Origin: Kutzneria viridogrisea
GTDB lineage: Bacteria; Actinomycetota; Actinomycetes; Mycobacteriales; Pseudonocardiaceae
Length of the DNA: 64,000 nucleotides
Direction of reading: 5' to 3'
Assembly (NCBI GenBank): GCA_014138725.1
Contig: JACJID010000005.1
Span: forward strand, 124,001 to 188,000
The translations under genes and the position numbers were made by a program. The first letter of the stretch is position 1; each line of letters opens with the position of its first letter. Shown here one piece after another: positions 18,435 to 49,104 of the stretch. The notes below the pieces were generated by a model. The model was not told the origin of the DNA and ran no database searches. It was given only the letters and a program-made list of their open reading frames with translations.

Positions 18435-19079
18435 GTGTCCGTCACAGTGTTGCTCGTCGATGACCACGAGGTGGTGCGCCGGGGGCTGCGTGACCTGCTC
18501 GACGGTGAGGACGGGGTGGAGGTCGTCGCCGAGGCCGGTGGTGTCCAGGAAGCGCTGGTGCTGGCCCGTTCGCTGCGGCCCGCCGTGGCCGTGGTGGACA
18601 TGCGGCTGCCCGACGGGGACGGGGTCAGCCTGTGCCGCGAACTGCGCGGCCTCGCCGAGGGCGACTGGCAGGGCCCGCACTGCCTGGTGCTGACCGCCTT
18701 CGACGACGAGGAGGCGCTGTTCGGCGCCATCATGGCCGGTGCCTCGGGCTACCTGCTCAAGCAGGTGCGCGGCCAGGACCTGGTGAAGGCCGTGCGCGAG
18801 GTGGCCCAGGGCCGTTCCCTGCTGGACCCGGTGACCACCGCCCGCGTGCTGGAGCGGATGCGCCGCCCCGCCGCCACCGACGAGCTGGACGCGCTCACCG
18901 AGCAGGAACGCAAGGTGCTGAACCTGATCGGCGACGGGCTGACCAACCGGCAGATCGCCGAACGCCTGTTCCTGGCCGAGAAGACCGTCAAGAACTACGT
19001 GACCTCGGTGCTGGCCAAGCTGGGCATGGAACGCCGCACCCAGGCCGCCGCCTGGGTCGCCAAACGCTCCCAGCGGTGA
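18435..19079 (+). CDS. NarL/DevR-type response regulator (REC + LuxR HTH)
   Basis: 214 aa. The REC domain has VDDHE acidic residues (~8-12), phosphoacceptor Asp in VAVVDMRLPDGDG (~55) and TAFDDEEALF with the signalling threonine. The C-terminal LuxR helix-turn-helix (~150-205) reads LTEQERKVLNLIGDGLTNRQ and then AEKTVKNYVTSVLAKLGM. A TACCGT hexamer ends 6 nt before GTG 18435, suggesting a leaderless transcript. It is convergent with a DevS-like histidine kinase gene, making that its likely partner, although the genes are not in one operon: the kinase is the last gene of the cyd cluster. Confidence 0.92.
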   Translation: MSVTVLLVDDHEVVRRGLRDLLDGEDGVEVVAEAGGVQEALVLARSLRPAVAVVDMRLPDGDGVSLCRELRGLAEGDWQGPHCLVLTAFDDEEALFGAIMAGASGYLLKQVRGQDLVKAVREVAQGRSLLDPVTTARVLERMRRPAATDELDALTEQERKVLNLIGDGLTNRQIAERLFLAEKTVKNYVTSVLAKLGMERRTQAAAWVAKRSQR

Positions 19080-19092
19080 GGGTTGGCTAGTC

Positions 19093-19202
19093 GTAACGAC
19101 TACTGCATCCCCCGCCACTCCCAGGGGGGCGACCCCGCTTCCAGCCTACCGCCCGCCCCACCCCGTTGATCTTGCTGAAGATCCACATGTGGACAACTCG
19201 CC
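19093..19202 (-). repeat. 110-bp dispersed element, copy A
   Basis: Identical in all 110 positions, in inverse orientation, to 27093-27202; a diverged third copy is at 49004-49104. Read on the minus strand it contains TTGTCCACA (DnaA-box consensus), a GATCTT-CAGC-AAGATC hairpin, a TAGGCT hexamer, GGGGTCGCCCC and a G-rich tail. It fills most of the 141-bp gap between the convergent response-regulator and kinase genes. Confidence 0.85.
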
Positions 19203-19220
19203 AGCTGTCCACAACCAGCC

Positions 19221-20357
19221 TCAACCGACTGGTACCTCCCAGACGACCGTGGTACCGCTGCGGGCCGAGGAGTCGACCACGCACCGGCCGCCCACCGAGG
19301 TGGCCCGCTCCTCCAGGTGACGCAGGCCGCGCCGGGTCACGTCCGGCGGGATGCCGCAGCCGTCGTCCACCACGCGCAGTCGCAGGCCGTGCTCCCCGCG
19401 CTGCAACTCCACCGTCACGGCACTGGCCCCGGAGTGCCGCACCACGTTGGACAGGGCCTCCCGCAGCGCCGCACGCGCGTTGTCCGCCACGGCCACCGGG
19501 ACGTCCACCATGTCGCCCTCGATGAGCAGCTCGGGTTGGAAGCCCAGCAGCTCCCCCGCGGTGTTGACCTCCGACCGCGCGGACTCCAGCAGGTCGGTGG
19601 CGGTGCTCGTGTCGGAGGGGTCGCCGCTGCGCAGGGCGCGCACGTGCCCGCGCACCTCGGCGATGGTCTGGTCGAGCTGGTCCACGGCGTCGGCCAGGCG
19701 CTGCGCCTCCTGGTCGGTGAGCTTGCCCGCGAGCCTGCGGTCGAGCAGGTCGAGCTGCACCCCGGCGGCGTAGAGCCGCTGGATGATCACGTCGTGCAGG
19801 TCGCGGGCGATGCGTTCGCGCTCCTCGTACACGGCCAGCCGCTGGCGGGCGGTCCAGCCCTCGGCCAGCACCAGCGCCAGCCCGGCCTGTGCGGCGAAGG
19901 CCGTGAGCATCTCGATGTCGGTGGCGGTGAACGGGACGTGCCCGCGCCTGCGGTACACCGCGAGCGCGCCCAGCCTGCGCTCCCTCGTGCCGAAGGGCAC
20001 CACGGCGAACGGCCCGTAGATGCGCAGTTGCGGGGGCACGAACGGGGCGGTCACCGGGTTGGAGGTCAGGTCGTCCACCACGACCGGGATGCCGCTGCGG
20101 GCGACCCTGGCAGCCGCGGACCGCGCGGAGAGCACGATGCCGACCGGATTGGTGCCGCCGTGCGCGGCCTCCACGGTGAGCCGGTCGTCCTCCCCGCGCA
20201 CCGACACCAGGCACAGATGGGCAGCGGCCAGCTCGGCCGCGCCCCGGACGACCAACGGCAGCACGGCGTCCGGGTCGTCACCGGACAGCGCTGCCGTGGT
20301 GATCTCGGTGGCGACCTGGAGGGTTCGGCCGGCAAGCGTGGGGTCCATGATGCGCAT
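19221..20357 (-). CDS. GAF-domain sensor histidine kinase (DevS-like, HisKA_3)
   Basis: 378 aa, soluble. A single GAF domain occupies ~15-165. The phosphoacceptor histidine is in IARDLHDVIIQRLY (~190), the HisKA_3 signature of NarL-type partners. The ATPase domain follows with EALSNVVRHSGA (N box), VVDDGCGIP (G1) and GLRHLEERA (G2). The GAF domain resembles those of DevS/DosT, but I cannot see whether it binds heme. It starts 6 nt after the cydDC stop, so it is probably cotranscribed with cytochrome bd genes, which points to sensing oxygen or redox state. The likely partner is the convergent response regulator. ATG 20348 is an alternative start. Confidence 0.88.
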   Translation of the reverse strand: MRIMDPTLAGRTLQVATEITTAALSGDDPDAVLPLVVRGAAELAAAHLCLVSVRGEDDRLTVEAAHGGTNPVGIVLSARSAAARVARSGIPVVVDDLTSNPVTAPFVPPQLRIYGPFAVVPFGTRERRLGALAVYRRRGHVPFTATDIEMLTAFAAQAGLALVLAEGWTARQRLAVYEERERIARDLHDVIIQRLYAAGVQLDLLDRRLAGKLTDQEAQRLADAVDQLDQTIAEVRGHVRALRSGDPSDTSTATDLLESARSEVNTAGELLGFQPELLIEGDMVDVPVAVADNARAALREALSNVVRHSGASAVTVELQRGEHGLRLRVVDDGCGIPPDVTRRGLRHLEERATSVGGRCVVDSSARSGTTVVWEVPVG

Positions 20358-20363
20358 ACGAGG

Positions 20364-23300
20364 TTAGGCCGCCTCTCGCTCGCGCACCCGGATCGTGCCA
20401 AGGCTCACCTCGATCACCAGATCGGCCAGCTCCGCCTCCTCGGGTCGGTGTGTGACGTGTACGACGGTACGGCCCGCGAGTCGATCACGCAGGCGGTCCA
20501 GCAGGACACGCGCTGTCGGCTCGTCCAGGTGCGCGGTGGGCTCGTCCAGCAGCACCAGGTCCGCGTGCTCGGCCCGCAGCAGCGCCCTGGCCAGCGCGAG
20601 CCGCTGGGCCTCACCGCCGGAGACGGTCGCTCCCCCGGCGCCGAGCACCACGTCCAGCCGGTGCGCCCAGCCCGGTAGCTCGGCGGCCACCAGCGCCTCG
20701 CGCAGGGCTTGGTCGCTGGCCGCCGGGTCGCCCAGGCGCAGGTTCTCGCGGATCGTGGTGGACACCAGCTGGGGCTCCTGCGGGCACCAGGACACCCGAC
20801 CAGGCAGTCGCAGCTCGCCCTGTTCGGCAGGCAGGAAACCCAGCAGCAGAGCCAGCAGCGTGGACTTGCCCGCGCCGGACGGCCCGACCACGGCCACGTG
20901 CGTGCCGGGTCTGATCGGCCCCAGGGTGACCCCGGTCAGCGCGGGGGCCCCGGCACCGGGCCAGCGCGCGGTCACCTCGTGCAGGTGCAGGTGTTCGCCC
21001 GGAACGGGAGCGTCCCGAAGTCCCATGTCGGGACGGTCCCGTTCCGGGCGGTCCCCGAGCAGCTCAGTGACCCGCTGATGGGCGGACCTGAGTGCACCCC
21101 ACTGCTGGGCTGCCACGGGGAGTCCGGCAACCGCCTCGGCGGCCGCCAACGGCACCAGCACCACCAGGGGCGCCAGCACCGGGTCGAGTTGCCCTGCGGC
21201 GACGGCACTCGCCGCGAGCCATGCGCAGGCCACGGTGGCCGCACCGATGGCGGCCGTCACCACCGCACCGGCCGCGCCCGCGCCGAACGCCTGACGGCGT
21301 GCGGTGGCCGCGAGCGCGCTGTCGGCGGCGGCGAGTTCGCTGCGGCGCAGGCGGTGCGTGCCGTAGGCGATCAGGTCGGCTGCGGCGTCGAACAGCACGA
21401 GCACCTTGGCGGCCACGTCACGGCGCCCAGCGGCCAAGGCGGTGCTGGCCCTGCGCTCGACGAGCAGCGCCACCGCCGGACCGGCCACGCCCGCCACCAG
21501 CAGGCCGATGCCCAGCGCCAGCCCCGCGGCGGGCAGCACCGCCGACTCCAGTACGACCGCACCGATCGCCACCAGGCCGCCGACCAGCGGTGGGATCAGC
21601 ACGCGTGGCACCAGGTCGCGCACGGCGTCGGTGTCGTCCACCAGCCGCTGCACCCCGTCGGTGCGGCGCAGCGCTGTGGTGCGCGCGGGCCCGAGCCGGA
21701 CCACCGCCTGCCAGAGCCGCACCCGCAGCTCGCCGCCCAGCCGGAACGCGGCGTCGTGCGTCACGAGCCGTTCCACGTAGCGCAGCACACCCTTGCCGAG
21801 CCCGAAGGTCCGCACGGCGACGATGGCCACCGACAGGGTCAGGATCGGCGGCTGCTGGGCGGCCCTCGCGATCAGCCAGGCCGCCGTGGCGGTGAGCGCG
21901 ATGCCGCAGCCCACGGCGGCGACACCGAGTGCGGCCCCGGCCAGCAGGCGCCAGCTGACCAGGTCACGCACGCGGGCGCGGACCTGGCCGGTGCTCGGCC
22001 TGCTCGCGGCGAGCACCGGCGCGGTGGGCGGCGCGGGCTGGTCCTGGTCGGCGATCCGGTGCGTGGCCAGCAGCACGCCCACCCCGCTCGCGGCGACCTC
22101 GGTGATCACCGACATGACCCGTGCCGCGGTGGCCGGATCGAGGTGGGCCGTCGGCTCGTCCAGCAGCAGCCAACGCGCGCCCTGCTCGATCCTGAGCAGT
22201 GCTCGCACGAGGGCGACTCGTTGCCGCTCGCCCGTGGACAGCTCTGCCAGTGGCCGGTCCACCAGGGGTTCGGCGCTGACTCTGCTTGCGGCGCCGAGGA
22301 TGTCGCCGCCGATGAGGTCGAGTTCGGCGCGCACCGTGTCGGCGCTGAAGACGGGCCGCTGCGGCATCCAGGCGAGCTGTCGGCGCCATGTCGACAAATC
22401 CACTGTGGACAGGTCGACCCCGTCCACGGTCACCTGGCCCGCGTCCGGGCGCACGAAACCGAGTAGCACCGCCAGTGTCGTGGACTTGCCCGCACCACTC
22501 GGCGAGTCGAGCCGGTGGATCTGGCCTGGCCGCAGCGTGAACGACAGGTCCTCGGGCGCGAGCCGGTCCCTGCGCCGGACGCCGAGCCCGCGCACGACGA
22601 TCGCGCCGGTACCGGCCTCCGCGGTGCCCTCGTGGTCCCGCGTGCCGATCTCGGCCACCCTGCGGACCGCCTCGACCCCGTCCTCGCTGGCGTGGAACGC
22701 GGCGCCCGCGGCACGCAGCGGCAGGTAGCACTCCGGCGCGAGGATCAGCACCAGCAGGCCGGTGGCCAGGCCGAGGCTGCCCGCGACCAGCCGCAGGCCG
22801 ATGTCCACGGCCACCAGCGCCACGGACAGGGTGGCCACGGTCTCCAGCGCGAAGGCGGACAGGAAGGCCACCCGCAGGGTCGCGCCGGTGGCCTTGCGGT
22901 GTTGCTCGCCGACCTTGCGCACCGCCTCGGCCTGTGCGGGGGCACGGCGGAACGCGGTGAGCACTGGCAGGGCGCGGACCAGTTCCAGCAGGTAGCCGGA
23001 GAGCCGGGCGGTGGCGTCGGCGGCCCGTGCGGCGCGGTGCTCGGTGAACTTGCCGATCAGCGCGGCGAACAGCGGGATCAGCGGTACGGTGAGGGCGATC
23101 AGCAGGGCCGAGGTCGGGTCGGCGACCAGGATGCAGGCGCCGACCAGCGCGGGCACCACGGCGGCGGTGACCAGCGCGGGCAGGTACTTGGTGAAGTAGG
23201 CGTCCAGGGCGTCCAAGCCCTTGGTGGACAACACGGTGAGCTCGGCCGACCCGCGCTCGGCGATCCACTCCGGGCCGAGGTCCAACGCGCGGTCGAGCGC

Positions 23301-23627
23301 CCTCGCGCGCAGTTCCTCCTTGGCCCCGGCCGCGGCGCGGGCGGCGGCGGTCTCGGTGGCCCAGCTCAGCACCGCCCTGGCGAGCACCGCGGCAGCGGCG
23401 AGGGCCAGCGGTCCGCCCACCTGGTCGGTGTGCCCTGCGGCGACCGAGGCGAGCAGCGTGGCCAGGGCCCAAGCCTGGGCGACGAGGGCGGCGGCGGTGA
23501 GCACCGCGAGCACGGCGCAGGTGACCAATGCTCGGCGCGCTGACCGGGACAGACCCGGTAGCGCGCCGAGCGGGCCTCTCCTCGAGCGGTCAGCTTGGCG
23601 GGAAGGCCGCCCGGGAGAAGTCGTCAC
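20364..23627 (-). CDS. cydDC: Fused CydDC thiol-reductant ABC exporter
   Basis: 1087 aa: two full ABC half-transporters in one chain. The first (CydD-like) has ~6 membrane helices (~35-300) and an ATPase with Walker A SPSGAGKSTT, signature LSTGERQRVALVRALL and Walker B WLLLDEPTAHLDP. The second (CydC-like) has its membrane domain from ~565 and an ATPase with GPSGAGKSTLL, VSGGEAQRLALARALL and LVLLDEPTAHLDE. CydDC exports cysteine and/or reduced thiols and is needed to assemble cytochrome bd. Fusion of the two is common in streptomycetes and relatives. The GTG start overlaps the cydB stop (GTGA). Confidence 0.95.
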   Translation of the reverse strand: MTTSPGRPSRQADRSRRGPLGALPGLSRSARRALVTCAVLAVLTAAALVAQAWALATLLASVAAGHTDQVGGPLALAAAAVLARAVLSWATETAAARAAAGAKEELRARALDRALDLGPEWIAERGSAELTVLSTKGLDALDAYFTKYLPALVTAAVVPALVGACILVADPTSALLIALTVPLIPLFAALIGKFTEHRAARAADATARLSGYLLELVRALPVLTAFRRAPAQAEAVRKVGEQHRKATGATLRVAFLSAFALETVATLSVALVAVDIGLRLVAGSLGLATGLLVLILAPECYLPLRAAGAAFHASEDGVEAVRRVAEIGTRDHEGTAEAGTGAIVVRGLGVRRRDRLAPEDLSFTLRPGQIHRLDSPSGAGKSTTLAVLLGFVRPDAGQVTVDGVDLSTVDLSTWRRQLAWMPQRPVFSADTVRAELDLIGGDILGAASRVSAEPLVDRPLAELSTGERQRVALVRALLRIEQGARWLLLDEPTAHLDPATAARVMSVITEVAASGVGVLLATHRIADQDQPAPPTAPVLAASRPSTGQVRARVRDLVSWRLLAGAALGVAAVGCGIALTATAAWLIARAAQQPPILTLSVAIVAVRTFGLGKGVLRYVERLVTHDAAFRLGGELRVRLWQAVVRLGPARTTALRRTDGVQRLVDDTDAVRDLVPRVLIPPLVGGLVAIGAVVLESAVLPAAGLALGIGLLVAGVAGPAVALLVERRASTALAAGRRDVAAKVLVLFDAAADLIAYGTHRLRRSELAAADSALAATARRQAFGAGAAGAVVTAAIGAATVACAWLAASAVAAGQLDPVLAPLVVLVPLAAAEAVAGLPVAAQQWGALRSAHQRVTELLGDRPERDRPDMGLRDAPVPGEHLHLHEVTARWPGAGAPALTGVTLGPIRPGTHVAVVGPSGAGKSTLLALLLGFLPAEQGELRLPGRVSWCPQEPQLVSTTIRENLRLGDPAASDQALREALVAAELPGWAHRLDVVLGAGGATVSGGEAQRLALARALLRAEHADLVLLDEPTAHLDEPTARVLLDRLRDRLAGRTVVHVTHRPEEAELADLVIEVSLGTIRVREREAA

Positions 23628-24631
23628 GGAACGTGCACCTCGGGGATGTGCTTGGTGCCGATGCGGCGCCGGAACACCCAGTAGGTCCAGCTCTGGTAGA
23701 GCAGCACGGCCGGGGTGCCGAAGGCGGCGACCCAGGTCATCACCCCCAGGGTGTACGGGCTGGAGGCCGAGTTGGCCACGGTCAGCGAGTACGCCGGGTC
23801 CAGTGTGGACGGGATGACCGCGGGGAAGGCGGAGCCGAACAGCACCACGACCACGCCCACGAGCAACACGCCGAGCAGGGCGAAGGACTGGCCTTCACGC
23901 CCGGCGCGCAGGCGCACCAGCGCCAGCACCCCGGCCAGCAACGCGACCGCGGCGAGGACCAGGGTCCAGGCGCTGCCCTGCCGGACCTGGAGCAGCACCA
24001 GCAGCACGGCAATGGGGACCAGGCACAGCGGGCCGATGCGCAGCGCGAAACCGCCTGCCCGCTGGCGGATCTCGCCCTCCGTCTTGAGCGCCAGGAACAC
24101 CGAGCCGTGCAGGATGCTGAACCCGGCCACCGCGAGCGCGCCGAGCAGGGCGAGCGGGGTGAACAGCGCGAGCGGGCCACCGGACAGCGCGCCGTCCTTG
24201 GTGAGCGGCAGGCCGGTGGCCATCGCGGTGAGCACCAGGCCCCAGCCCAGCGGCGGGATCCAGGAACCGAGCTGGATCACCACGTCCCAGCGGCGACGCC
24301 AGCGCGCACTGTCCACCTTGCCGCGGTACTCGAAGGCGACCCCGCGCCCGATCAGCGCCAGCAGGATGAGCAGCACCGGCAGGTAGGCGGTGGACAGCAT
24401 CGTGGCGTACCAGGGCGGGAATGCCGCGAAGGTGGCGCCGACGGCCACGAGCACCCACACCTCGTTGCCGTCCCACACCGGGCCGATGGTGTTGACCATG
24501 ACTCGTCGCTCGGTGTTGTCGCGGGCGAGCAGGCCGAGCAGGATGCCGACCCCGAAGTCGAAGCCCTCCAGGAAGAGGTAACCCAACCACAGGACGACGA
24601 TCAGGCAGAACCAGATGGTCGACAGATCCAC
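23624..24631 (-). CDS. cydB: Cytochrome bd ubiquinol/menaquinol oxidase subunit II
   Basis: 335 aa with eight to nine membrane helices. The N-terminus is typical for CydB (STIWFCLIVVLWLGYLFLEG then FDFGVGIL), as are NTIGPVWDGNEVWVLVA and the TPYTLGVMTW-like SSPYTLGVMTWVAAF near the end. With CydA it forms the high-affinity terminal oxidase that reduces O2 to water from menaquinol. I chose the second of two GTG codons (24631) because GGAGGGG sits 5 nt before it; the first GTG (24637) would overlap the ribosome site. It lies 13 nt after cydA. Confidence 0.96.
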   Translation of the reverse strand: MDLSTIWFCLIVVLWLGYLFLEGFDFGVGILLGLLARDNTERRVMVNTIGPVWDGNEVWVLVAVGATFAAFPPWYATMLSTAYLPVLLILLALIGRGVAFEYRGKVDSARWRRRWDVVIQLGSWIPPLGWGLVLTAMATGLPLTKDGALSGGPLALFTPLALLGALAVAGFSILHGSVFLALKTEGEIRQRAGGFALRIGPLCLVPIAVLLVLLQVRQGSAWTLVLAAVALLAGVLALVRLRAGREGQSFALLGVLLVGVVVVLFGSAFPAVIPSTLDPAYSLTVANSASSPYTLGVMTWVAAFGTPAVLLYQSWTYWVFRRRIGTKHIPEVHVP

Positions 24632-24644
24632 GTGCACCCCTCCC

Positions 24645-26135
24645 TCAGTAGGCGAAAGCCAGGACGTCTTCGGACTTCTCGGTGTCGGTCGGCGGCGGCA
24701 TCACACCGGCGACCCCGGCCCTGGCGTACCGCACGAGCAGGTACACCTCCACGACCGCGAGCACCCCGTACACGGTGGTCAGCGCGATCAGCGAGGTGAG
24801 CATCTCCCCCACCGACACCCCCGAGGACACGGCCTGCGCGGTGTACATCCAGACACCGTCCACTCCGGACGGGTTGGGCACCACCACGAAGGGCTGGCGG
24901 CCCATCTCGGTGAAGATCCAGCCGAAGCTGTTGGCCAGGAAGGGGGTCGCGATGGAGAGCAGTGCCAAGCGTGGGAACCACTTGGTCCGTGGGATGCGTC
25001 CCCGGCGGGTCAGCCAGAGCGCGAGCAGGGCGGCGGCCGCGGCGATGCCGCCGAACCCGATCATGAACCGGAATCCCCAGTAGGTGACCGGCAGCACCGG
25101 CACGTAGTCGATGGGCTTGCCGGACAGCTCGCCCAGCTTCGGGTCGACCGGGTAGTTGCTGCCGTACTTGGCCTGGTACTGGTGGATGAGGTCGCCGACG
25201 CCCTTGACCTCGGTGGAGAAGTCGTTGTGCGCCAGGAAGGACAGCAGCGCGGGCACGGTGATGCTCTTGACGTTCTCGCAGTCCTGCCTGGACACGTCCC
25301 CGTAGGCGAAGACGGAGAAGCTCGCCGGGGCCTCGGTGTGGCACAGGGCTTCCGCCGCGGCCATCTTCATCGGCTGCTGCTCGAACATGAGCTTGCCCTG
25401 CGCGTCCCCGGTCAGCGCGACGGCGGCGAAGGAGATCATGCCGATCCAGGCGCCGAGCTTGAGCGAGCTGGACCAGACGCGGCGGTCCGGGTCCTCGGCG
25501 CTGGAGTCGCGGTGCTTGCGCCACAGATGCCAGGCCGAGATGCCGACCAGGAAGGTGCCCGCGACGGCGAAGCCGCCCGCGACGGTGTGCGGGAACGCGG
25601 CCAGCGCGGTGTTGTTGGTGAGCAGTGCCCAGATCGAGTTCAGCCTCGGCTTGCCGTCCACGAACTCGATGCCGACCGGGTGCTGCATCCAGGAATTCGC
25701 CGAGAGGATGAAGTAGGCCGAGACGGTCGAGGCCAACGAGGCGGCCCAGATGCAGGCCAGGTGCACGCGTTTCGGCAGCCGTTCCCAGCCGAAGATCCAC
25801 AATCCGAGGAACGTGGACTCGACCATGAAGGCGACGAGGCCCTCCATCGCCAGCGGTGCGCCGAAAACGTCACCGACGAACTTCGAGTAGGAGCTCCAGG
25901 CCATGCCGAACTGGAACTCCTGGACGATTCCGGTCACCACGCCCATGGCGAAGTTGACCAGCATGAGCTTGCCCCAGAACTTGGTCATCGCCAGGTAGTG
26001 CCGCTTGCCGGTGACCACCCAGGCGGTCTGCATGATCGCGACCACAATGGACAACCCAATGGTCAACGGCACCATCAGGAAGTGATAGACGGTGGTGATT
26101 CCGAACTGCCACCTGGCGACATCAAGAACGTCCAC
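24645..26135 (-). CDS. cydA: Cytochrome bd oxidase subunit I
   Basis: 496 aa, about nine membrane helices. RWQFGITTVYHFLMVPLTIG contains the His that ligates heme b595 (residue ~19). Other hallmarks are WSSYSKFVGDVFGAPLAMEG, FMVESTFLGLWIFGWERLP, the Q-loop region, and GWIFTEMGRQPFVV (GRQP motif). The Q loop appears short, as in actinobacterial and Bacillus enzymes. It carries hemes b558, b595 and d and oxidises menaquinol. The start is GTG 26135. First gene of a cydA-cydB-cydDC-kinase operon, which in related bacteria is induced by low oxygen or blocked respiration. Two palindromes upstream may bind its regulator. Confidence 0.96.
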   Translation of the reverse strand: MDVLDVARWQFGITTVYHFLMVPLTIGLSIVVAIMQTAWVVTGKRHYLAMTKFWGKLMLVNFAMGVVTGIVQEFQFGMAWSSYSKFVGDVFGAPLAMEGLVAFMVESTFLGLWIFGWERLPKRVHLACIWAASLASTVSAYFILSANSWMQHPVGIEFVDGKPRLNSIWALLTNNTALAAFPHTVAGGFAVAGTFLVGISAWHLWRKHRDSSAEDPDRRVWSSSLKLGAWIGMISFAAVALTGDAQGKLMFEQQPMKMAAAEALCHTEAPASFSVFAYGDVSRQDCENVKSITVPALLSFLAHNDFSTEVKGVGDLIHQYQAKYGSNYPVDPKLGELSGKPIDYVPVLPVTYWGFRFMIGFGGIAAAAALLALWLTRRGRIPRTKWFPRLALLSIATPFLANSFGWIFTEMGRQPFVVVPNPSGVDGVWMYTAQAVSSGVSVGEMLTSLIALTTVYGVLAVVEVYLLVRYARAGVAGVMPPPTDTEKSEDVLAFAY

Positions 26136-26153
26136 GACATCACTGTGCCAGCG

Positions 26154-26206
26154 GGAACCGGGTTCCGCTCAGGTGCGAGCGTCCCGTTCGCGGAGGACCT
26201 AGGTCC
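26154..26206. promoter_or_regulatory. Two palindromes upstream of cydA
   Basis: GGAACC-G-GGTTCC (26154-26166) lies 18 nt before the cydA start and GGACCTAGGTCC (26195-26206) is a perfect 12-bp palindrome further upstream. Neither matches the Rex consensus I know. They could be binding sites for the regulator of cydA or of the divergent Mn-riboswitch transcript. Function is unknown. Confidence 0.4.
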
Positions 26207-26248
26207 CGGTGGCCGAGGTCACGGTGGGCGGCGAACCCATGAGCCGGT

Positions 26249-26254
26249 TACAAT
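26249..26254 (+). promoter_or_regulatory. -10 element TACAAT of the riboswitch transcript
   Basis: TACAAT is close to the TATAAT consensus and ends 10 nt upstream of the riboswitch core, which begins near 26264. No strong -35 is visible 17 nt upstream. The transcription start would be around 26261. Confidence 0.55.
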
Positions 26255-26263
26255 GATTGCGCC

Positions 26264-26401
26264 TGAGGGGAGTAGTTCCCACGATCGCTGGAAACAGCGG
26301 TCTGGCGAGAGCATCGACATACTGATCCTCACGGGGATCCGGTGCCTCACCCGCGTCAGCGCGGGCGAACGAGACCTCCGGCCGGGTAGACGCATACCCG
26401 G
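26264..26401 (+). ncRNA. yybP-ykoY manganese riboswitch
   Basis: The leader of the GDT1 gene carries the conserved pieces of the yybP-ykoY element: GAGGGGAGTAG (26265-26275) at the 5' side, CGACATACTGATC (26315-26327), and GCGAACGAGACCTCCGGC (26366-26383) at the 3' side, with paired arms such as ACCCGCG/CGCGGG between. An adjacent perfect hairpin CCGGGTA-N6-TACCCGG (26382-26401) overlaps the last conserved bases and may be the expression platform. A second stem (CCGTCC/GGACGG, ~26429-26445) lies just before the start codon. Members of this class bind Mn2+ and switch on Mn efflux or handling genes, which fits the downstream gene. Confidence 0.8.
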
Positions 26402-26462
26402 TCGGGGTCGTGCGTTCCGCCACTCCCCCCGTCCGGGCCGGACGGGAAGGACTCGGGACCTC

Positions 26463-27065
26463 ATGGCTTCACCCTTGCTCATGCTGCTGACGGCGTTCGC
26501 CGTCGTGCTGGCCGTGGAGCTGCCGGACAAGACGCTGGTGGCCACGCTCGTGCTCACCACGCGCTACCGCGCCGCGCCGGTGTTCCTGGGTGTGTGCGTG
26601 GCGTTCCTGGTGCAGTGCGTCGTCGCGGTCGCCTTTGGCAGCCTGCTGACCCTGCTGCCGACGAACCTGGTCACCGGCGTGGTCGCCCTGCTGTTCGGCA
26701 TCGGCGCGGTGATGCTGCTGCGCGAGGGCTTCGCCCGCGTCGAGGACGGCGAACAGGACGCCGCCCGCTCCGGCAACGGACCGGTGCCGTTCTGGCGTTC
26801 CGCGCTGACCTCGTTCGGCGTGCTGTTCGCCGCCGAGTGGGGCGACGCGTCCCAGCTGGCCACCGCGGGTCTGACGGCGCACTACGGGGACCCGCTGATG
26901 ATCGGCATCGGTTCCTGGCTGGCGCTGGTCGTGGTGGCCGGTGCCGCCGTGCTGATCGGCCGCAAGATTCGCGACCGGGTGAAACCGCACCTTGTGCAAC
27001 GGGTCGCCGGTGTGCTGTTCAGCGTGTTCGCGCTGATCGCGGCCTGGGAGACGATCTTCGGCTGA
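26463..27065 (+). CDS. TMEM165/GDT1 (UPF0016) family cation transporter, probable Mn2+ exporter
   Basis: 200 aa with about six membrane helices arranged as two homologous halves. Each half carries the family signature: VELPDKTLVATLVL (~18-31) and AEWGDASQLAT (~125-135), where acidic residues bind the cation. Bacterial members such as MneA export Mn2+; others handle Ca2+/Mn2+. The start ATG 26463 lies ~60 nt after the yybP-ykoY element, so expression is probably induced by excess manganese. It is convergent with the IclR gene across repeat copy B. Confidence 0.88.
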   Translation: MASPLLMLLTAFAVVLAVELPDKTLVATLVLTTRYRAAPVFLGVCVAFLVQCVVAVAFGSLLTLLPTNLVTGVVALLFGIGAVMLLREGFARVEDGEQDAARSGNGPVPFWRSALTSFGVLFAAEWGDASQLATAGLTAHYGDPLMIGIGSWLALVVVAGAAVLIGRKIRDRVKPHLVQRVAGVLFSVFALIAAWETIFG

Positions 27066-27092
27066 GGTCTGGCCGCCGGGTTGTGCACAGGC

Positions 27093-27202
27093 GGCGAGTT
27101 GTCCACATGTGGATCTTCAGCAAGATCAACGGGGTGGGGCGGGCGGTAGGCTGGAAGCGGGGTCGCCCCCCTGGGAGTGGCGGGGGATGCAGTAGTCGTT
27201 AC
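27093..27202 (+). repeat. 110-bp dispersed element, copy B
   Basis: Exact inverted copy of 19093-19202 over 110 bp; identity stops abruptly on both sides. Its right end includes the TAA stop of the convergent IclR gene (27201..27199). Contents are as in copy A: DnaA-box 9-mer TTGTCCACA at 27099-27107, a GATC hairpin, TAGGCT, and GC hairpins. Confidence 0.85.
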
Positions 27203-27840
27203 CGCAAGGCCGCGGTCACCAGGCCCGCGGCGTGCACCACCAGCGGGCCGACGATCTCCAGGTCGAGCGGTTCCATCGACACCACACCGACACTGGCGCG
27301 CAGCGAGGGCACACCGCGCACCGGGGCGGCCGCGCCGTAGGCCCCTGGCTGCAACTCACCGGTGCTGTCGACCCAGCCGGGACTGCCGGGCGGCAGGGCG
27401 AGCGCCTTGCCCGCGGCGCCGCGGTGCACGGGGTGCCGGGTGCCCACCCGGTAGGCCACGTGGTAGATCGTCCAGGAGGGCTCGACCACGGCGACGGCCT
27501 GCGCCTCGTTGCCCTCGGCCACGGTCAGGTGCGCGGTGGCGCCGACCCTCTCGGCGAGTTCGCGCAGTGCGGGCGAGGCAGCGATGCGCAGCTGCGGCAG
27601 CACCTTCTCAGCCAGCCGCAGTACACCAAGACCGAGCCGCACCTTGGAGCCGTCCCGGCGCACGAGCCCGCGCGCCTGTAGGGGCACCAGCAGCCGGTAG
27701 ACGGCCGCTCTGGAGGCCCCGATGGCCATGGCGAGGTCGCTGATGCTCGGCGCCTCGGTGTCCGCGTCGGCGACGGCCTGCAGCAGCGCCAGACCCCGTT
27801 CCAGGGTCAGCGAGCTCTCGCGCGTCGCCGACGCGGCCAC
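27199..27840 (-). CDS. IclR-family regulator of homogentisate catabolism
   Basis: 213 aa. The N-terminal winged helix reads TLERGLALLQAVAD and SISDLAMAIGASRAAVYRLL (~32-51); the C-terminal IclR effector domain (~80-210) contains RHPVHRGAAGKALAL. IclR proteins commonly control aromatic-acid catabolism. It is encoded 2 nt after fahA on the same strand, with hmgA divergent, so homogentisate or a related intermediate is a sensible effector (inference). The palindrome at 29927-29943 is a candidate operator. GTG 27840 is the first usable start after the fahA stop. Confidence 0.88.
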   Translation of the reverse strand: MAASATRESSLTLERGLALLQAVADADTEAPSISDLAMAIGASRAAVYRLLVPLQARGLVRRDGSKVRLGLGVLRLAEKVLPQLRIAASPALRELAERVGATAHLTVAEGNEAQAVAVVEPSWTIYHVAYRVGTRHPVHRGAAGKALALPPGSPGWVDSTGELQPGAYGAAAPVRGVPSLRASVGVVSMEPLDLEIVGPLVVHAAGLVTAALR

Positions 27841-32356: not shown

Positions 32357-33604
32357 ATGGACGTGGAGGCGGTGCTGGCGCTGGCGCCGGACCGGCAGGT
32401 GGCCACCGGTGCCACCAAGCTCGCCGTGCCTGCCAGCTGGCACGGGGCGGGCCGGGCCGAGGGCGCGCTGTGGGGCGAGTGCTCGGGCAGCGGTAAGAAC
32501 CCGTACCTGGTGTGCGTGGACCTGCTGGACCGGGCCACGCGTTGTTCCTGCCCGTCAAGGAAGTTCCCGTGCAAGCACGCGGTCGCGCTGCAACTGCTGC
32601 ACGCCCGGGAGGTGCTGCCCGAGGCGGCGCGGCCGGAGTGGGTGGAGCAGTGGCTGACCGGTCGACGGGCCAGGCAGACCGAGGCTGCGCGGCGCCCGGC
32701 CAAGCCCACCAAACGCAGGGAACAGGCCGTGCGGGCGGGCATCTCCGGGCTGCACGACTGGCTGGCCGACCTCGCCGATGGCGGGCTCGCCGCCCTGCCG
32801 GGCAAGGAAACCCAGTGGTGGCAGGGCATCTTCGCCCGGATGATCGACGCGCAGGCGCCCGGCGTGGCGGCGGCCACCGCCGAGTTGCGCTCGGTGGTCG
32901 CGGCGAAGCGCCCCCGCTGGTACGAGGAGGCCGCCGACCACATCGGACGGTTGCACCTGCTGGCCGTGCTGGCCACCGGGGAGGACGAGGTGGTGCGCAC
33001 GCGGATCGGCTTCACCACCACCGAGGAGGAGGTGCGCGCGGGCGAGTCCTGGTCGGACGACTGGGTGGTGCTGCTGCGCGCCGACAGCGACGACGGACGG
33101 GTGCGCACGGTGCGCCAGTGGGCGTGGGGGCGGGCACGGGCCGAGTGGGTGGTCGTGGCGAAGCACGCGGCCGGGGGTGCGGTGCCAGCGCCCGCGCTGA
33201 CCCCCGGTGCGGAACTGGCCGCCGTGTTGCACCCGTACCCCGGCGGGCGGCCGAGACGGGTGGCCGTCGGCGAGGTGAGCGGTACCGGCCCGGCGGGCCC
33301 GATCCCGTTGCCCCGCACGTGGTCCGCGGCGCTGGCCGAGGTGGAGCCGCTGCTGGTCGAGGACCCGTGGCAGCGGCTCGTGCCGCTGTGCTGCGGCCCG
33401 GTGCGGGCCGCCAGGGCCGGTGATCAGCTGGTGCTGGTCGACGAGTCGGCGTACCCGCTGCCCGTGGCCTGGGGGCAGCCGCTGGCCCGCGCGCTGGCCG
33501 CGGGCGGCGGCGCCCCGTTCGACGCGCTGGGCCTGTGGGACGGAGTGGCGTTGCAGCTCTGTGCCGTGGCCGAGCCGGGCGGAGCACCGGAGGTGTTGCT
33601 GTGA
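32357..33604 (+). CDS. SWIM zinc-finger protein of the MoxR/VWA operon (YehQ-like)
   Basis: 415 aa. The SWIM finger is CSCPSRKFPCKHAVALQLL (~60-78): Cys-x-Cys, then Cys-x-His. The rest is helical and beta mixed, with no recognisable catalytic motif. SWIM fingers bind DNA or protein. The gene opens a same-strand cluster followed by DUF5691, MoxR-type AAA, DUF5682 and VWA genes, the set found with E. coli yehL-yehM-yehP-yehQ. The 145-nt gap to the next gene contains two copies of a repeat core. Confidence 0.82.
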   Translation: MDVEAVLALAPDRQVATGATKLAVPASWHGAGRAEGALWGECSGSGKNPYLVCVDLLDRATRCSCPSRKFPCKHAVALQLLHAREVLPEAARPEWVEQWLTGRRARQTEAARRPAKPTKRREQAVRAGISGLHDWLADLADGGLAALPGKETQWWQGIFARMIDAQAPGVAAATAELRSVVAAKRPRWYEEAADHIGRLHLLAVLATGEDEVVRTRIGFTTTEEEVRAGESWSDDWVVLLRADSDDGRVRTVRQWAWGRARAEWVVVAKHAAGGAVPAPALTPGAELAAVLHPYPGGRPRRVAVGEVSGTGPAGPIPLPRTWSAALAEVEPLLVEDPWQRLVPLCCGPVRAARAGDQLVLVDESAYPLPVAWGQPLARALAAGGGAPFDALGLWDGVALQLCAVAEPGGAPEVLL

Positions 33605-33749
33605 GCGAGCTTGCGAGCTCACCAATAAACACAGGGAGCCTGCTCTCAGGCCGACGAGCACAGCGAGGAGCGCCCGAGAGCGAGCTTGCGAGCTCACCAT
33701 TGGGCACAGGAGCGGTCGCGAGAGCGCAGGGCGCTAGCGAGGTGGGCTC
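33601..33749 (+). repeat. Intergenic linker element, copies 2a/2b (SWIM to DUF5691)
   Basis: GTGAGCGAGCTTGCGAGCTC (33601-33620; contains the SWIM gene stop) and a second near-identical core at 33678-33698, each followed by ACC(A/T) and an ACAGG, form a tandem pair. The 3' end GCGCTAGCGAGGTG (33731-33744) supplies the ribosome site exactly 5 nt before GTG 33750. The core can fold: GTGAGC pairs with GCTCAC. Confidence 0.65.
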
Positions 33750-35132
33750 GTGAGTGCGATCGAAACCCAGTGGCAGCAAGCAGTTCAGCAACTGCTGGTC
33801 GGCGCGCGGCGCAGTGGGGTCAGCCGGGACGAGTTGCTCGCCGAGGTCGCCGCGCTCGGGCTCGCCCGGTTCGGCGCCCGCCTGCCCGTACCCGGTGAGC
33901 CGATCACGGAGATCCCGAGCGCGCCCGCGGAGGTCAAGCCCTCGACCGGTCCCGCGGCCCGATCGGTGCTGGCGCAGATCCTCAGCTGGGACGACGACGC
34001 GCTGCTCACCGAGTGGTGCGCCACCGCGAACAGGCACGGAGTGGTCGCCGCGCCCGCGCACCTGCCCCAGTTGCTGGCGCTGGGCGCGGCGCGGGCCACC
34101 CTGCGGCCCGCGATCAACCTGGTGCTCGGCGTGCGTGGCCGCTGGCTCGCCGAGGTGGCCGCCGACTGGGGTTGGGCGCGGGGCCGCACCGAGCACGAGC
34201 CGGTGGACCTGGACGCGCCGCCGGGCCGCCGGCTGACCGCGCTGCGGGCCGCCCGCAGGCAGGATCCGGCAGCGGTGCGCGAGCTCGTCGCCGAGCAGTT
34301 GCCCGAGCAGCGCAGGGCCTCGGACCGCCAACTGCTCGTCAACGCGCTGGAGGTCGGCCTCGGCGCGGCGGACGAGCCGCTGCTGGAGGCCGCGCTGGAC
34401 GACCGCGCGGCCGGGGTGCACGACGTGGCGGTGCGGCTGCTGCGCCGACTGCCCGGCTCGGCCCTGTCCCAGCGGGCCGCCGACCGGCTGCGCGAGGGGC
34501 TGCCCTGCGCCGAGGTGCTGCCGGGTGGCCGGTACGACACCGAGCCGGACGAGGCCGAGCTGCGGGACCTGATCCGGGACGGCAGCACGGAGAGCGGCCT
34601 CGCGGGCAGGCTGCGCGGCGCGGCGGCCAGTGTGTCGCCGGAGTTCTGGGACGTGGAGCAGGTGCTGACCGGACACTGGGCCAAGGCCTTGCTGCAAGGA
34701 ATCGCCGAGGCGCTGCCGCTGGCGGCGGACCCGGTGCCCTGGGCGGTGGCGGCCAGCCAGGTGCTGACCGGCATGGCCATGCTGGACGCCATCGACGCGC
34801 TGCCGGGGCGGACCGCGGCGGAGGTGCTGGTGGCGGTCTCGGGCGGCTGGAAGTACGACATGCTCGACCACGGCTGCTCGCAGCTGCCGGGGCCCTGGCC
34901 GCCGGACATCACCGCCGTGCTGCTGGACCGGTTCGGCAACGCCGTGACCCCGGGCTGGCGCACCGGCCGCCCACCCCCGGTGCTGCTCACCAGGGGCGAT
35001 GTCGGGGTGCTCGACGAGCACTGGCCGCGCATCGCCCAGCGGTGGCCGGAACACACCAACGAACAAGCAGTGCTGCGGCTGCGCGTGGAACTGCGCGACG
35101 CGTTCGAGAACGACCGGAAGGAACTCCCGTGA
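33750..35132 (+). CDS. DUF5691 protein of the MoxR/VWA operon
   Basis: 460 aa, soluble, almost entirely helical, with short repeats resembling HEAT/ARM units in the middle (EPLLEAALDDRAAGVHDVAVRLL). This matches DUF5691 proteins, which are known only from clusters with SWIM, MoxR-AAA, DUF5682 and VWA proteins. A scaffold or adaptor role is inferred. GTG 33750 is fixed by GAGGTG 5 nt upstream. The stop codon lies inside the next copy of the linker element. Confidence 0.75.
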   Translation: MSAIETQWQQAVQQLLVGARRSGVSRDELLAEVAALGLARFGARLPVPGEPITEIPSAPAEVKPSTGPAARSVLAQILSWDDDALLTEWCATANRHGVVAAPAHLPQLLALGAARATLRPAINLVLGVRGRWLAEVAADWGWARGRTEHEPVDLDAPPGRRLTALRAARRQDPAAVRELVAEQLPEQRRASDRQLLVNALEVGLGAADEPLLEAALDDRAAGVHDVAVRLLRRLPGSALSQRAADRLREGLPCAEVLPGGRYDTEPDEAELRDLIRDGSTESGLAGRLRGAAASVSPEFWDVEQVLTGHWAKALLQGIAEALPLAADPVPWAVAASQVLTGMAMLDAIDALPGRTAAEVLVAVSGGWKYDMLDHGCSQLPGPWPPDITAVLLDRFGNAVTPGWRTGRPPPVLLTRGDVGVLDEHWPRIAQRWPEHTNEQAVLRLRVELRDAFENDRKELP

Positions 35133-35205
35133 GTGAGCTTGCGAACGAACCATCGAGCACAGGCCGCGGGGGCGGCGCTGCGCCGAGCGCAAGCGAGGTG
35201 CGGCG
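35129..35205 (+). repeat. Intergenic linker element, copy 3 (DUF5691 to AAA)
   Basis: Begins GTGAGTGAGCTTGCGAACGA (contains the TGA stop at 35130-35132) and ends GCGCAAGCGAGGTG (35187-35200), giving a ribosome site 5 nt before GTG 35206. Same plan as copies at 15593-15652 and 33601-33749. Confidence 0.65.
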
Positions 35206-44540: not shown

Positions 44541-44692
44541 TTGTCCACAACCAGTGCACAGGTTCGGTGCACAGCCTGCCCCGGTGCGGCTCGCGGAGTT
44601 CCCGCAGCTCACCGGGGCTTTCGCGTTCTGCGACCGGAAGTTGCACAACTCCTGTCACCAGGTTGCGCACAGTTGTCCCCAGGTTGTCCACA
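44541..44692. repeat. DnaA-box-like sites upstream of the ferritin gene
   Basis: TTGTCCACA, the actinobacterial DnaA-box consensus, occurs at 44541-44549 and 44684-44692, with a one-mismatch TTGTCCCCA at 44673-44681. No gene is visible in 44531-44778; the 3' part holds the ferritin control signals. Confidence 0.5.
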
Positions 44693-44778: not shown

Positions 44779-45324
44779 ATGTCCCCCCACAACGGCACCA
44801 CGAAGTTCCACGAATTGCTGCGGGCGCAGATCCGCAACGAGTTCACCGCCGCCCAGCAGTACACGGCGATCGCGGTCTGGTTCGACGGCCAGGACCTGCC
44901 CCGGCTGGCGGCGCACTTCTACCGCCAGTCCCTCGAGGAGCGCAACCACGCCATGATGATCGTCCAGTACCTGCTGGACAACGACATCACCGTGGCCATT
45001 CCCGGCGTCGGCGAGGTGCGCAACGAGTTCGACTCCGTGCGCGAGCCGGTCGAGCTGGCGCTGCAGCAGGAGCGCACCGTCACCGACGAGATCACCACGC
45101 TGGCCAGGGCCGCCCGCGACGAGGGCGACTACCTCGGCGAGCAGTTCATGCAGTGGTTCCTCAAGGAGCAGGTCGAGGAGGTCTCCTCGATGTCCACGCT
45201 GCTGCACACCGTGGACCGTGCGGGGGACAACGTCTTCCACATCGAGGACTTCCTGGCCAGGGAGTCCGTGGGCGAGGAGGGCAACGACCCGACCGCGCCG
45301 AAGGTCGCGGGCGGCAAGGTCTGA
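44779..45324 (+). CDS. Ferritin (BfrB-like iron store)
   Basis: 181 aa, the same length as mycobacterial BfrB. A four-helix bundle carries ferroxidase ligands: Glu in QIRNEFTAAQQYTAIAVWF (~17-35), Glu-x-x-His in LEERNHAMMIVQYLL (~53-67), and the later Glu residues in ELALQQERTVTDEI and EQVEEVSS. No Met heme ligand typical of bacterioferritin is evident, so it is a non-heme ferritin. The last ~15 residues form a flexible tail. It oxidises Fe2+ and stores Fe3+ in a 24-mer shell. An iron box upstream suggests IdeR control. Confidence 0.93.
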   Translation: MSPHNGTTKFHELLRAQIRNEFTAAQQYTAIAVWFDGQDLPRLAAHFYRQSLEERNHAMMIVQYLLDNDITVAIPGVGEVRNEFDSVREPVELALQQERTVTDEITTLARAARDEGDYLGEQFMQWFLKEQVEEVSSMSTLLHTVDRAGDNVFHIEDFLARESVGEEGNDPTAPKVAGGKV

Positions 45325-45735: not shown

Positions 45736-45849
45736 TTATCCACATCCTCCTGTGGACAGCCTGGGGACAACTGTGGACAACCAGACTGCTCTTGTGGGCA
45801 ACTGCGCTTGTGGGCAACTGGCGGGCTTGTGGGCAACTCTTGTGGGCAA
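45736..45849. repeat. Cluster of DnaA-box-like 9-mers
   Basis: One perfect TTATCCACA (45736-45744), TGTGGACAG (45751-45759), TGTGGACAA (45772-45780; exact TTGTCCACA on the minus strand), and four TGTGGGCAA (45793, 45809, 45828, 45841; TTGCCCACA on the minus strand, one mismatch to consensus). TGGGGACAA at 45762 is a further degenerate site. All but the first are on the minus strand. There is no dnaA/dnaN or AT-rich unwinding region, so this is not oriC. It may titrate DnaA or regulate genes. Confidence 0.6.
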
Positions 45850-45851
45850 CT
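45791..45851 (+). repeat. Four copies of CTTGTGGGCAACT
   Basis: Exact 13-mers at 45791-45803, 45807-45819, 45826-45838 and 45839-45851, with 3, 6 and 0 nt between them. They form the right half of the DnaA-box-like cluster. Unequal spacers and the short unit exclude a CRISPR array. Confidence 0.85.
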
Positions 45852-47797: not shown

Positions 47798-48988
47798 ATG
47801 ACAATGTTCGAACCGCAGGACCCCGAGTTCCTCGCCGACCCTTACCCCGCGTTCGACGCGTTGCGCGCCGTCGGCGAGGTGCACGACCACCCCGGGCTCG
47901 GCATGGCCGTCGCGGTGTCGCACTCGGCGTGTTCGGCGGTGCTGCGCCACCGCGGCCTGGGCCGGGTCTGGTCGGACGTCAAGCCGGTGGAGCAGTTCGC
48001 CGCGGTCAACCTGCTGCACCGCAACTCGCTGCTGGAGAGCGAGCCGCCCAAGCACACCCGGCTGCGGAGACTGATCGCGGGCGCCTTCGCGCGCGGGCAC
48101 GTGGAGCGGCTGCGCCCGTGGGTCGCCGAGCTGGCCGGCAGGCTGGTGGACGGGCTCGCCGAGAAGATCGAGGCCGGGGACAGCGCCGACCTGCTCGTCG
48201 AGGTGGCCGGCCCGCTGCCCGTCGAGGTGATCGCCGAACTGCTCGGCGTACCCGGCCCCGACCGGGCGCTGTTGCAGCCGTGGTCGAACGCGATCGTGAA
48301 GCTCTACGAGTACGGCCTGCCGCCGCAGACCCGGGAGGCCGCCGAGCGCGCCGCCGCCGAGTTCGTGGCCTACCTGCGGGAGCTGATCGCGCTGCGCCGC
48401 AGGCAGCCCGGGTCGGACCTGGTCAGCGACCTGGTCGCGGAGACCGACACCGATGGCGCCCGGCTGACCGAGGACGAGCTGGTGGCCACGGCGGTACTGC
48501 TGCTGATGGCCGGGCACGAGGCTTCGGTGAACGTGGTCGGCAACGGGGTGCTCGCCCTGATGCGGCACCGCGACCAGTGGCAGCGCCTGGTCGAGGACCC
48601 GGCTCTGCTGCCGACCGCCGTCGAGGAGCTGATCCGCTTCGACTCCCCGCTGCAACTGTTCGAGCGCACCGCCGCCACCGAGGTCGAGATCGCCGGCCAC
48701 GTGGTGAAACCCGGGGAGAAGATCGCCGCCCTGCTCGGTGCCGCCGCCCGCGACCCGCTCGTCTTCGACTCCCCCGGCACCCTGGACGTGGGCCGCTCCC
48801 CTAACGCCCACCTCGGTTTCGGCGCGGGTATCCACTACTGCGTCGGCGCCCCGCTCGCCCGCCTGGAGATCGGCGCCACACTCTCGGCCTTGACACGCCG
48901 CCTGCCCACCGCCCAGCTCGCCGAAACCCCAGCTCGACGCGCTGAGTTCGTCATCCGCGGCCTGCGCTCGCTGCACCTGACGAGCTGA
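47798..48988 (+). CDS. Cytochrome P450 (CYP107-like)
   Basis: 396 aa, typical of bacterial class I P450s. I-helix AGHEASVNVVGNG (~239-251; Glu-Ala in place of the common Glu-Thr), ExxR in AVEELIRFDSP, and the heme loop FGAGIHYCVGAPLARLE (~343-359) with the Cys thiolate. The EPPKHTRLRRLI C-helix stretch is also canonical. It inserts oxygen into an unknown substrate. No ferredoxin or ferredoxin reductase is adjacent and no secondary-metabolite genes surround it. Convergent with the DUF4328 gene across repeat copy C. Confidence 0.95.
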   Translation: MTMFEPQDPEFLADPYPAFDALRAVGEVHDHPGLGMAVAVSHSACSAVLRHRGLGRVWSDVKPVEQFAAVNLLHRNSLLESEPPKHTRLRRLIAGAFARGHVERLRPWVAELAGRLVDGLAEKIEAGDSADLLVEVAGPLPVEVIAELLGVPGPDRALLQPWSNAIVKLYEYGLPPQTREAAERAAAEFVAYLRELIALRRRQPGSDLVSDLVAETDTDGARLTEDELVATAVLLLMAGHEASVNVVGNGVLALMRHRDQWQRLVEDPALLPTAVEELIRFDSPLQLFERTAATEVEIAGHVVKPGEKIAALLGAAARDPLVFDSPGTLDVGRSPNAHLGFGAGIHYCVGAPLARLEIGATLSALTRRLPTAQLAETPARRAEFVIRGLRSLHLTS

Positions 48989-49003
48989 GTTGTCCACAGC
49001 CGC

Positions 49004-49104
49004 CGAGTTGTCCACATGTTGATCTCCGCCAAGATCAACTGCGGGCGGCGGGCGGTAGACTGGACTTGGGGTCGCCCCCCAGGGAGTGGCGGGGGATGGA
49101 GTAG
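49004..49104 (+). repeat. Dispersed element, diverged copy C
   Basis: Same order of blocks as the 110-bp element at 27093-27202 with substitutions and at least one gap: CGAGTTGTCCACATGT, a GTTGATCT...AGATCAAC hairpin (loop CCGCCA), GGCGGGCGGTAGACTGGA, GGGGTCGCCCCCC and GGGAGTGGCGGGGGATG. It again lies between convergent genes (P450 and DUF4328) and abuts the stop of the minus-strand gene. A second TTGTCCACA lies just before it at 48990-48998. Confidence 0.8.

Follow-up and report, generated by a model that had tools for sequence, protein, structure and literature searches.

Why should two intergenic stretches of a chromosome, 8 kb apart and in opposite orientation, be identical at every position? 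The question is raised by a window of 64,000 nt from a Kutzneria genome (the whole stretch of DNA analysed, C5:124001-188000, 90-154 kb from dnaA), in which positions 19093-19202 of the forward strand and 27093-27202 of the reverse strand agree at 110 of 110 positions, the first base beyond differing on both sides. The preliminary description had reported this identity, and had placed TTGTCCACA, GATCTTCAGCAAGATC and TAGGCT in the shared stretch; all are found there. Without gaps, the inverted repeat of copies 1 and 2 can be followed over 142 nt at 92% identity. The hairpin pattern gave no match in 100 shuffles of the window, which excludes chance. A third copy had been overlooked; it is 84% identical to copy 2 (ungapped) and 80% identical to copy 1 when gaps are allowed. 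Each of the three copies in the window fills the gap between two convergent genes (Table 1), and the TAA stop codon of the IclR gene is supplied by the shared 110-nt stretch of copy 2. At the place of GATCTTGCTGAAGATC, the heptamer GATCTTG is common to several other Kutzneria copies and mostly absent from those of Goodfellowiella.

Table 1. Coordinates of the three copies, their parts and their neighbouring genes in the window
Feature	Position	Strand	Remarks
Copy 1	19080..19220	+	141-bp convergent gap; conserved core about 19109-19213
Copy 1, left neighbour: LuxR-type response regulator	18435-19079	+	
Copy 1, right neighbour: GAF/HisKA_3 kinase	19221-20357	-	
Copy 1, GC-rich block CCCCCGCCACTCCCAGGGGGGCGACCCC with hairpin GGGG-CGA-CCCC	19109..19136	+	51 own-genome matches; reversed control 0
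Copy 1, -10-like hexamer TAGGCT, then GG-NNNN-hairpin	19143..19148	-	
Copy 1, hairpin GATCTTGCTGAAGATC	19168..19183	+	as in this genome's copies
Copy 1, DnaA box 1 TTGTCCACA	19188..19196	-	hexamer offset 39
Copy 1, DnaA box 2 CTGTCCACA	19205..19213	+	1 mismatch; offset 56; inverted here
Copy 2	27066..27198	-	133-bp convergent gap
Copy 2, left neighbour: GDT1 antiporter	26481-27065	+	
Copy 2, right neighbour: IclR regulator	27199-27840	-	
Copy 2, -10-like hexamer TAGGCT	27147..27152	+	placed via 110-nt identity to copy 1
Copy 2, DnaA box 1	27099..27107	+	
Copy 2, DnaA box 2 TTGTGCACA	27081..27089	+	1 mismatch
Copy 3	48984..49104	-	convergent gap
Copy 3, left neighbour: P450	47804-48988	+	
Copy 3, right neighbour: DUF4328 gene	49106-50020	-	
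Copy 3, two exact DnaA boxes	48990-48998 and 49008-49016	+	18 bp apart

Identical copies that stand inverted could allow the 8-kb segment between them to flip, as had been proposed. The regulator, kinase, GDT1 and IclR genes occur in the order and orientation of the window in five Kutzneria relatives (G221, G222, G223, G225 and G226); in another, G224, the regulator, GDT1 and IclR agree, the kinase being absent among the matches listed. No inverted arrangement was seen in these genomes, and the two copies are 2 of about 61. Conserved gene order speaks against an inversion switch, which was rejected and to which we attach a negligible probability. The concern that the pair might be an assembly artefact can also be dropped: the two copies differ in their flanks, their outer ends and their neighbouring genes.

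Nor do the two copies stand alone. The union of the blastn, 5'-motif, 3'-half and relaxed-pattern searches yields at least 61 places in the genome. Blastn gave 41 matches, including one 27-base fragment (40 of 79 candidates were scored), and the 5' motif gave 51, with none for the reversed-pattern control; the 3' half located 48 places, among them three with neither a blastn nor a 5'-motif match (C2:734655, C3:838960 and C8:387044), and the relaxed pattern added two diverged copies. In the 5' flank of the core, the genome's copies show at least two end types, palindrome-like AGTCGTAACGACTA and CACCCATGAACAT, possibly subfamilies or recombined ends. Compared pairwise, 53 copies have a median identity of 82%. 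In the 108-base frame used for this comparison, copies 1 and 2 are 97% identical, a value equalled by three other pairs; a single pair so much alike is unexceptional in this family. Copies less than 50 kb apart (33 pairs) are hardly more alike than the others (mean identity 83% vs 82%, p 0.12), which argues against gene conversion between neighbours as a rule. The two other origins suggested for the identity, recent copying and constraint, both find support, the former from several Kutzneria relatives in which the sites of copies 1 and 2 are closed or nearly so, and the latter from DnaA boxes that stay invariant among orthologues while the spacers drift.

Within the family Pseudonocardiaceae, 93 of 390 genomes and 16 of 46 genera have a match, the present genome counted. 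Copy number within Kutzneria ranges from 0 to 51 by one pattern, and G202, taken as Goodfellowiella coeruleoviolacea, has 55 copies. Outside the family, none of the 391 sampled genomes of the class matched a pattern allowing two mismatches (the class sample has 3 matching genomes in 394, all 3 in Pseudonocardiaceae). A scan of genome contigs lists at least 90 loci, of which 45 were read by eye. The element also occurs in a contig labelled Rhodococcus rhodnii (L188, JOAA01000019.1) and in one labelled Melainabacteria (L186, CAJCJE010000095.1), either of which may be misnamed or contaminated. No paper on the element was found among the literature matches listed, subscription papers lying mostly outside their scope.

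Conserved in the element are a GC-rich hairpin, a TAnnnT hexamer that occupies the position of a -10 box when the reverse strand is read, and DnaA boxes TTGTCCACA, of which there are usually two. Their distances from the hexamer are about 37 or 47 bp and 57 or 68 bp, a helical turn apart. Counted from the end of CCAGYCTA, box 1 lies at 37-39 or, if it is reversed, at 36-37 or 47-48; the offsets of box 2 are 56-58 or 67-69. Copies were deduplicated by removing rows more than 80% alike, which left 112 rows, 74 of them without Goodfellowiella. In these 74 copies, 122 of 130 boxes stand at 36-39, 47-48, 56-58 or 67-69; 20 copies have a single box and 1 has none (up to one mismatch). The best period of the 130 boxes is 10.25 bp (R 0.81), a test without a valid p value because deduplicated rows remain related. 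Pairs of a reversed and a forward box, 29 in number, occupy two registers one turn apart, 36/57 and 47/68, and keep a constant spacing of 21 bp in both. The distance from box to hexamer is equal in copies of this genome (48), of Goodfellowiella (44) and of other genomes (43), and the sequence of the spacer is free in Goodfellowiella and the other genera, varying from copy to copy. Since the sequence between the blocks differs between copies, the shared geometry does not merely reflect recent copying.

Much of the conservation of the core arises by construction, because the copies were found by their core. The hexamer takes the forms TAGACT, TAGGCT, TACGCT, TAGAAT, GATAAT, GATACT, TAGAGT and GACACT. 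Its position 2 is A in all 30 loci fetched by the GC-rich block alone; these are the fair test, because many copies were fetched with a pattern holding most of the hexamer, and they are the only loci in which this A was free, the T at position 6 being a search anchor throughout. The hairpin loop varies among the matches listed, and by eye the G and C runs are mostly kept. A 5' hairpin was tallied for 60 of 74 putative transcripts; this figure was set aside because it includes every case in which the first bases pair at all. In copies 1 and 2, no -35 element stands 16-18 bp from the hexamer, and the consensus scan yields no promoter there; nor do they contain an intrinsic terminator (stem plus U tract), the one match lying inside the regulator gene. 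A classical promoter or terminator by consensus was rejected for these two copies. A known RNA family was likewise rejected: no Rfam match in the window exceeded its gathering score other than tRNA, copy 1 giving three chance-like matches below the cut-off (E 1.8 to 9.3).

Some copies contain a further motif at a fixed distance from the hexamer. The consensus of PafBC promoters is TTGTCRGTG-N8-TAnnnT. At the offset required by this spacing, a PafBC-like motif (at least 7 of the 9 letters) occurs in 29 of the 48 copies of this genome and 13 of 74 others; three other offsets in the 74 copies have 6, 1 and 1 occurrences. It is absent from copies 1 and 2, and from all 44 Goodfellowiella copies at the required offset. 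According to PMC8223512, the RecA-NDp motif also occurs in other Actinobacteria.

The boxes of the element match the DnaA box of the lineage. In both S. coelicolor and M. tuberculosis, the DnaA box of high affinity reads TTGTCCACA (PMC4285127). The dnaA domain of the present genome lies at C5:278053 and its oriC between dnaA and dnaN (276912-277969), with two exact TTGTCCACA and six boxes within one mismatch, the exact two included. In K. albida, oriC is reported to lack a classic DnaA box (PMC4210621), so the use of DnaA boxes in Kutzneria may differ. Two further stretches of the window, 44541-44692 and 45745-45850, which frame a gene (44779-45324), contain clusters of DnaA-box-like TTGTCCACA and repeated TTGTGGGCAACT and lack the element's GC-rich block. 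At 33590-35163, a 46-nt sequence with a GAGCGAGCTTGCGAGCTCACCA-like core stands in three direct copies (70-100%).

The places are concentrated towards the origin of replication. C5, the 0.8-Mb contig with dnaA, makes up 8% of the genome and contains 19 of the 61 places (binomial p 1.4e-7); C1, C7 and C11 have no place among the 61 listed. The same tendency was measured in 13 genomes hand-picked from carriers with few contigs, 12 of genus g11 (Amycolatopsis) and G225, taken as Kutzneria sp. CA-103260 (NZ_CP073318.1). Their 163 sites, called by pattern at up to three mismatches rather than box by box, and not independent in that orthologous sites recur across species, lie at a median of 0.16 of the half-chromosome from dnaA; the nearest quarter contains 116 of them and the nearest half 149, and the median of every genome is below 0.25. 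The origin bias holds for these 13 genomes. It may partly follow the core genome, because the latter is centred on oriC in K. albida, as PMC4210621 states. Sites antiparallel to the replication fork slightly outnumber parallel ones (95 vs 68, p 0.04, from rows that are not independent), a weak lean to which no weight was given.

One orthologous Amycolatopsis site is shared by seven genomes whose flanks are 87-94% alike, and lies 107-111 kb from dnaA in the three closed ones. All seven copies have the same two DnaA boxes, adjoining bases included, and spacers that have diverged in sequence and hardly in length. These boxes lie outside the search pattern; the core block is also nearly invariant, and it served to find the loci. 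The seven copies (L255, L259, L277, L211, L165, L184 and L202) also show a conserved CCGTGAAGGCCTCC-like block after the second box.

The convergent setting of the three window copies is the usual one. With a home-made gene caller based on codon usage, 42 of 50 copies in the genome are convergent, 5 and 2 fall in the two same-direction classes and 1 is divergent (50 of the 51 motif copies, C2:1891864 being left out); the convergent copies often span the gap from stop codon to stop codon. In the 400 kb around oriC, 10 of 11 elements are convergent and one is in a same-direction gap, against 75 convergent pairs among 382 gene pairs (p about 8e-7; the binomial used 381 pairs and the four classes sum to 382, which leaves the result unaffected). 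In Goodfellowiella, 14 of 30 are convergent, 16 same-direction and none divergent, the gene caller placing two of the 30 (L094 and L106) inside a predicted reading frame.

Several of these sites are empty in relatives. For 8 of the 11 elements of the 400-kb region the neighbour pair is adjacent in G225. Five of these eight testable sites are short gaps (60, 2, 17, -8 and 0 bp), of which the 60-bp one has its own hairpin; another is a gap of 556 bp in which the pattern is missing, one carries the element by the same pattern, and the copy 3 site carries, on reading, a diverged element. Near C5:17908 (L309), a convergent gap contains a strong GC-rich hairpin in addition to the element; its G225 orthologue has a different hairpin and no element. 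At the copy 1 site, the distance between aligned gene parts is 9-53 bp in five Kutzneria relatives, compared with 156-169 bp in the window; it is 15 bp in two genomes of genus g23, 47 bp in G011, 93 bp in G111 and 440 bp in G092. At the copy 2 site, three Kutzneria relatives have 19, 30 and 42 bp, and G226 has 86 bp; the orthologous gene models overlap by 8 bp in G225, the site spans about 1 kb in G224 and G222, apparently with another gene in between, and 416-1354 bp in G011 and four Amycolatopsis genomes. By eye, the element was not evident at this site in the relatives compared.

Because these sites are closed or nearly closed in several relatives, the most plausible reading is that copies 1 and 2 were inserted in this lineage, insertion being the probable direction of change. 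Copy 3, which is 65% identical to its G225 orthologue and 80% to its paralogue copy 1, is older than both. No terminal inverted repeats or target duplications were seen by eye at 11 sites of this genome, 8 of them beside their G225 sites, the relatives being too distant to fix exact ends. A search for one transposase family, Y1 (PF01797), gave no match in this genome at E values up to 0.01 and matches in 6 of 14 control genomes; Y1/REP transposition was rejected on this ground.

Taken together, these observations are best explained, in a reading that we hold tentatively, by a small dispersing promoter-like element with a core of about 110 bp, putatively bound and controlled by DnaA and transcribed. 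A regulated promoter fits because of the order box-box-spacer-TAnnnT-hairpin, the helical phase and, in part of the copies, the PafBC-like motif at its exact distance. Against it count the missing -35 box and PafBC-like motif of copies 1 and 2, the Goodfellowiella copies that lack this motif at the required offset, and the copies with a single DnaA box or none. The promoter would be read on the reverse strand of the element, away from the boxes, with TAnnnT serving as its -10 box and a start region beginning with the GC-rich hairpin. Copies of this genome would have the centres of their DnaA boxes, usually two, some 55 and 74 bp upstream of this predicted start. DnaA, which is both an activator and a repressor according to PMC8203912, may bind on one face of the DNA helix and thereby activate or silence a short transcript, which most copies of this genome would aim antisense into the 3' end of the convergent neighbour. 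Given their number and place, the copies may also provide the origin half of the chromosome with a pool of DnaA sites. New copies, by whatever means they spread, would enter short convergent gaps, where they are presumably least harmful, and some older ones would be inherited at fixed places and kept by selection.

The main rival is a DnaA reservoir near the origin, which is compatible with the promoter reading. On its own terms it makes the element a titration or structural site, comparable to extra-origin DnaA-box clusters or datA/DARS, whose boxes buffer initiation, the -10-like hexamer belonging to the site of another protein. Paired boxes in origin-proximal places, 61 of these compared with the two exact boxes of oriC, and boxes invariant in one orthologous set all speak for it. 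It leaves unexplained why the hexamer variants keep A at position 2, why the boxes keep a fixed phase to the hexamer and why a PafBC-like motif stands at exact spacing, and a copy number that varies so widely within one genus is odd for a core control; we regard it as rather unlikely. A purely selfish, MITE-like element, for which position is only tolerated insertion and the motifs serve its own spread, would account for the closed or nearly closed sites of relatives, for the many copies in two separate genera whose core variants differ and for the few or no copies in most other genomes. Orthologous copies kept with invariant boxes, the unexpected clustering around the origin, the failure to see terminal repeats or target duplications by eye and a genome without a Y1 match make this unlikely.

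The preference for convergent gaps, in this genome, around oriC and in Goodfellowiella (where no copy is divergent), could also point to a bidirectional terminator or roadblock, at which hairpins and bound DnaA would halt polymerases from both sides. Copies 1 and 2 lack a U-tract terminator, one element site has a separate strong hairpin as well, and 65 of the 75 convergent pairs in the 400 kb around oriC, with a median gap of 29 bp, do without the element. Such a role seems quite improbable.

If the promoter reading is true, a repeated and spreading element has kept an initiator-binding geometry across a bacterial family and is concentrated around the origin. In its widest form, which we consider doubtful, the family as a whole would carry dispersing promoters clocked by DnaA: each copy would give a short structured RNA when DnaA, and in some copies PafBC, is active, tens of synchronised starts in the origin half would link initiator level or replication stress to local transcription, and DnaA would be buffered as well. 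The role of extra-origin DnaA sites would then be directly testable, because related species carry 0 to about 60 copies.

Each known system resembles only part of the element. In PafBC (RecA-NDp) promoters of Actinobacteria, as in a subset of copies, the motif is rightly distanced from TAnnnT; unlike such promoters, many copies, including 1 and 2, have no motif, and what lies downstream of most copies of this genome is the 3' end of a convergent gene. REP/BIME and ERIC are likewise short extragenic repeats in many copies, according to PMC2817692 and PMC2229807; the present element differs in its structure, in its conserved geometry and in a genome without a Y1 transposase match. Correia elements (CREE/NEMIS) of Neisseria are also short and dispersed and, as PMC2649163 describes, can carry promoters and a host-factor site. 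The element differs from them in having DnaA boxes instead of IHF, an origin bias and, by eye, no terminal inverted repeats. In Streptomyces, the known extra-origin DnaA-box clusters occupy one locus or a few, as do datA/DARS in E. coli. Both are, as here, non-coding groups of DnaA boxes outside oriC (the former after a title cited in PMC4210621, the latter after PMC4585315). Unlike either, the present element recurs at some 60 places, and it has a core resembling a promoter and boxes in fixed phase.
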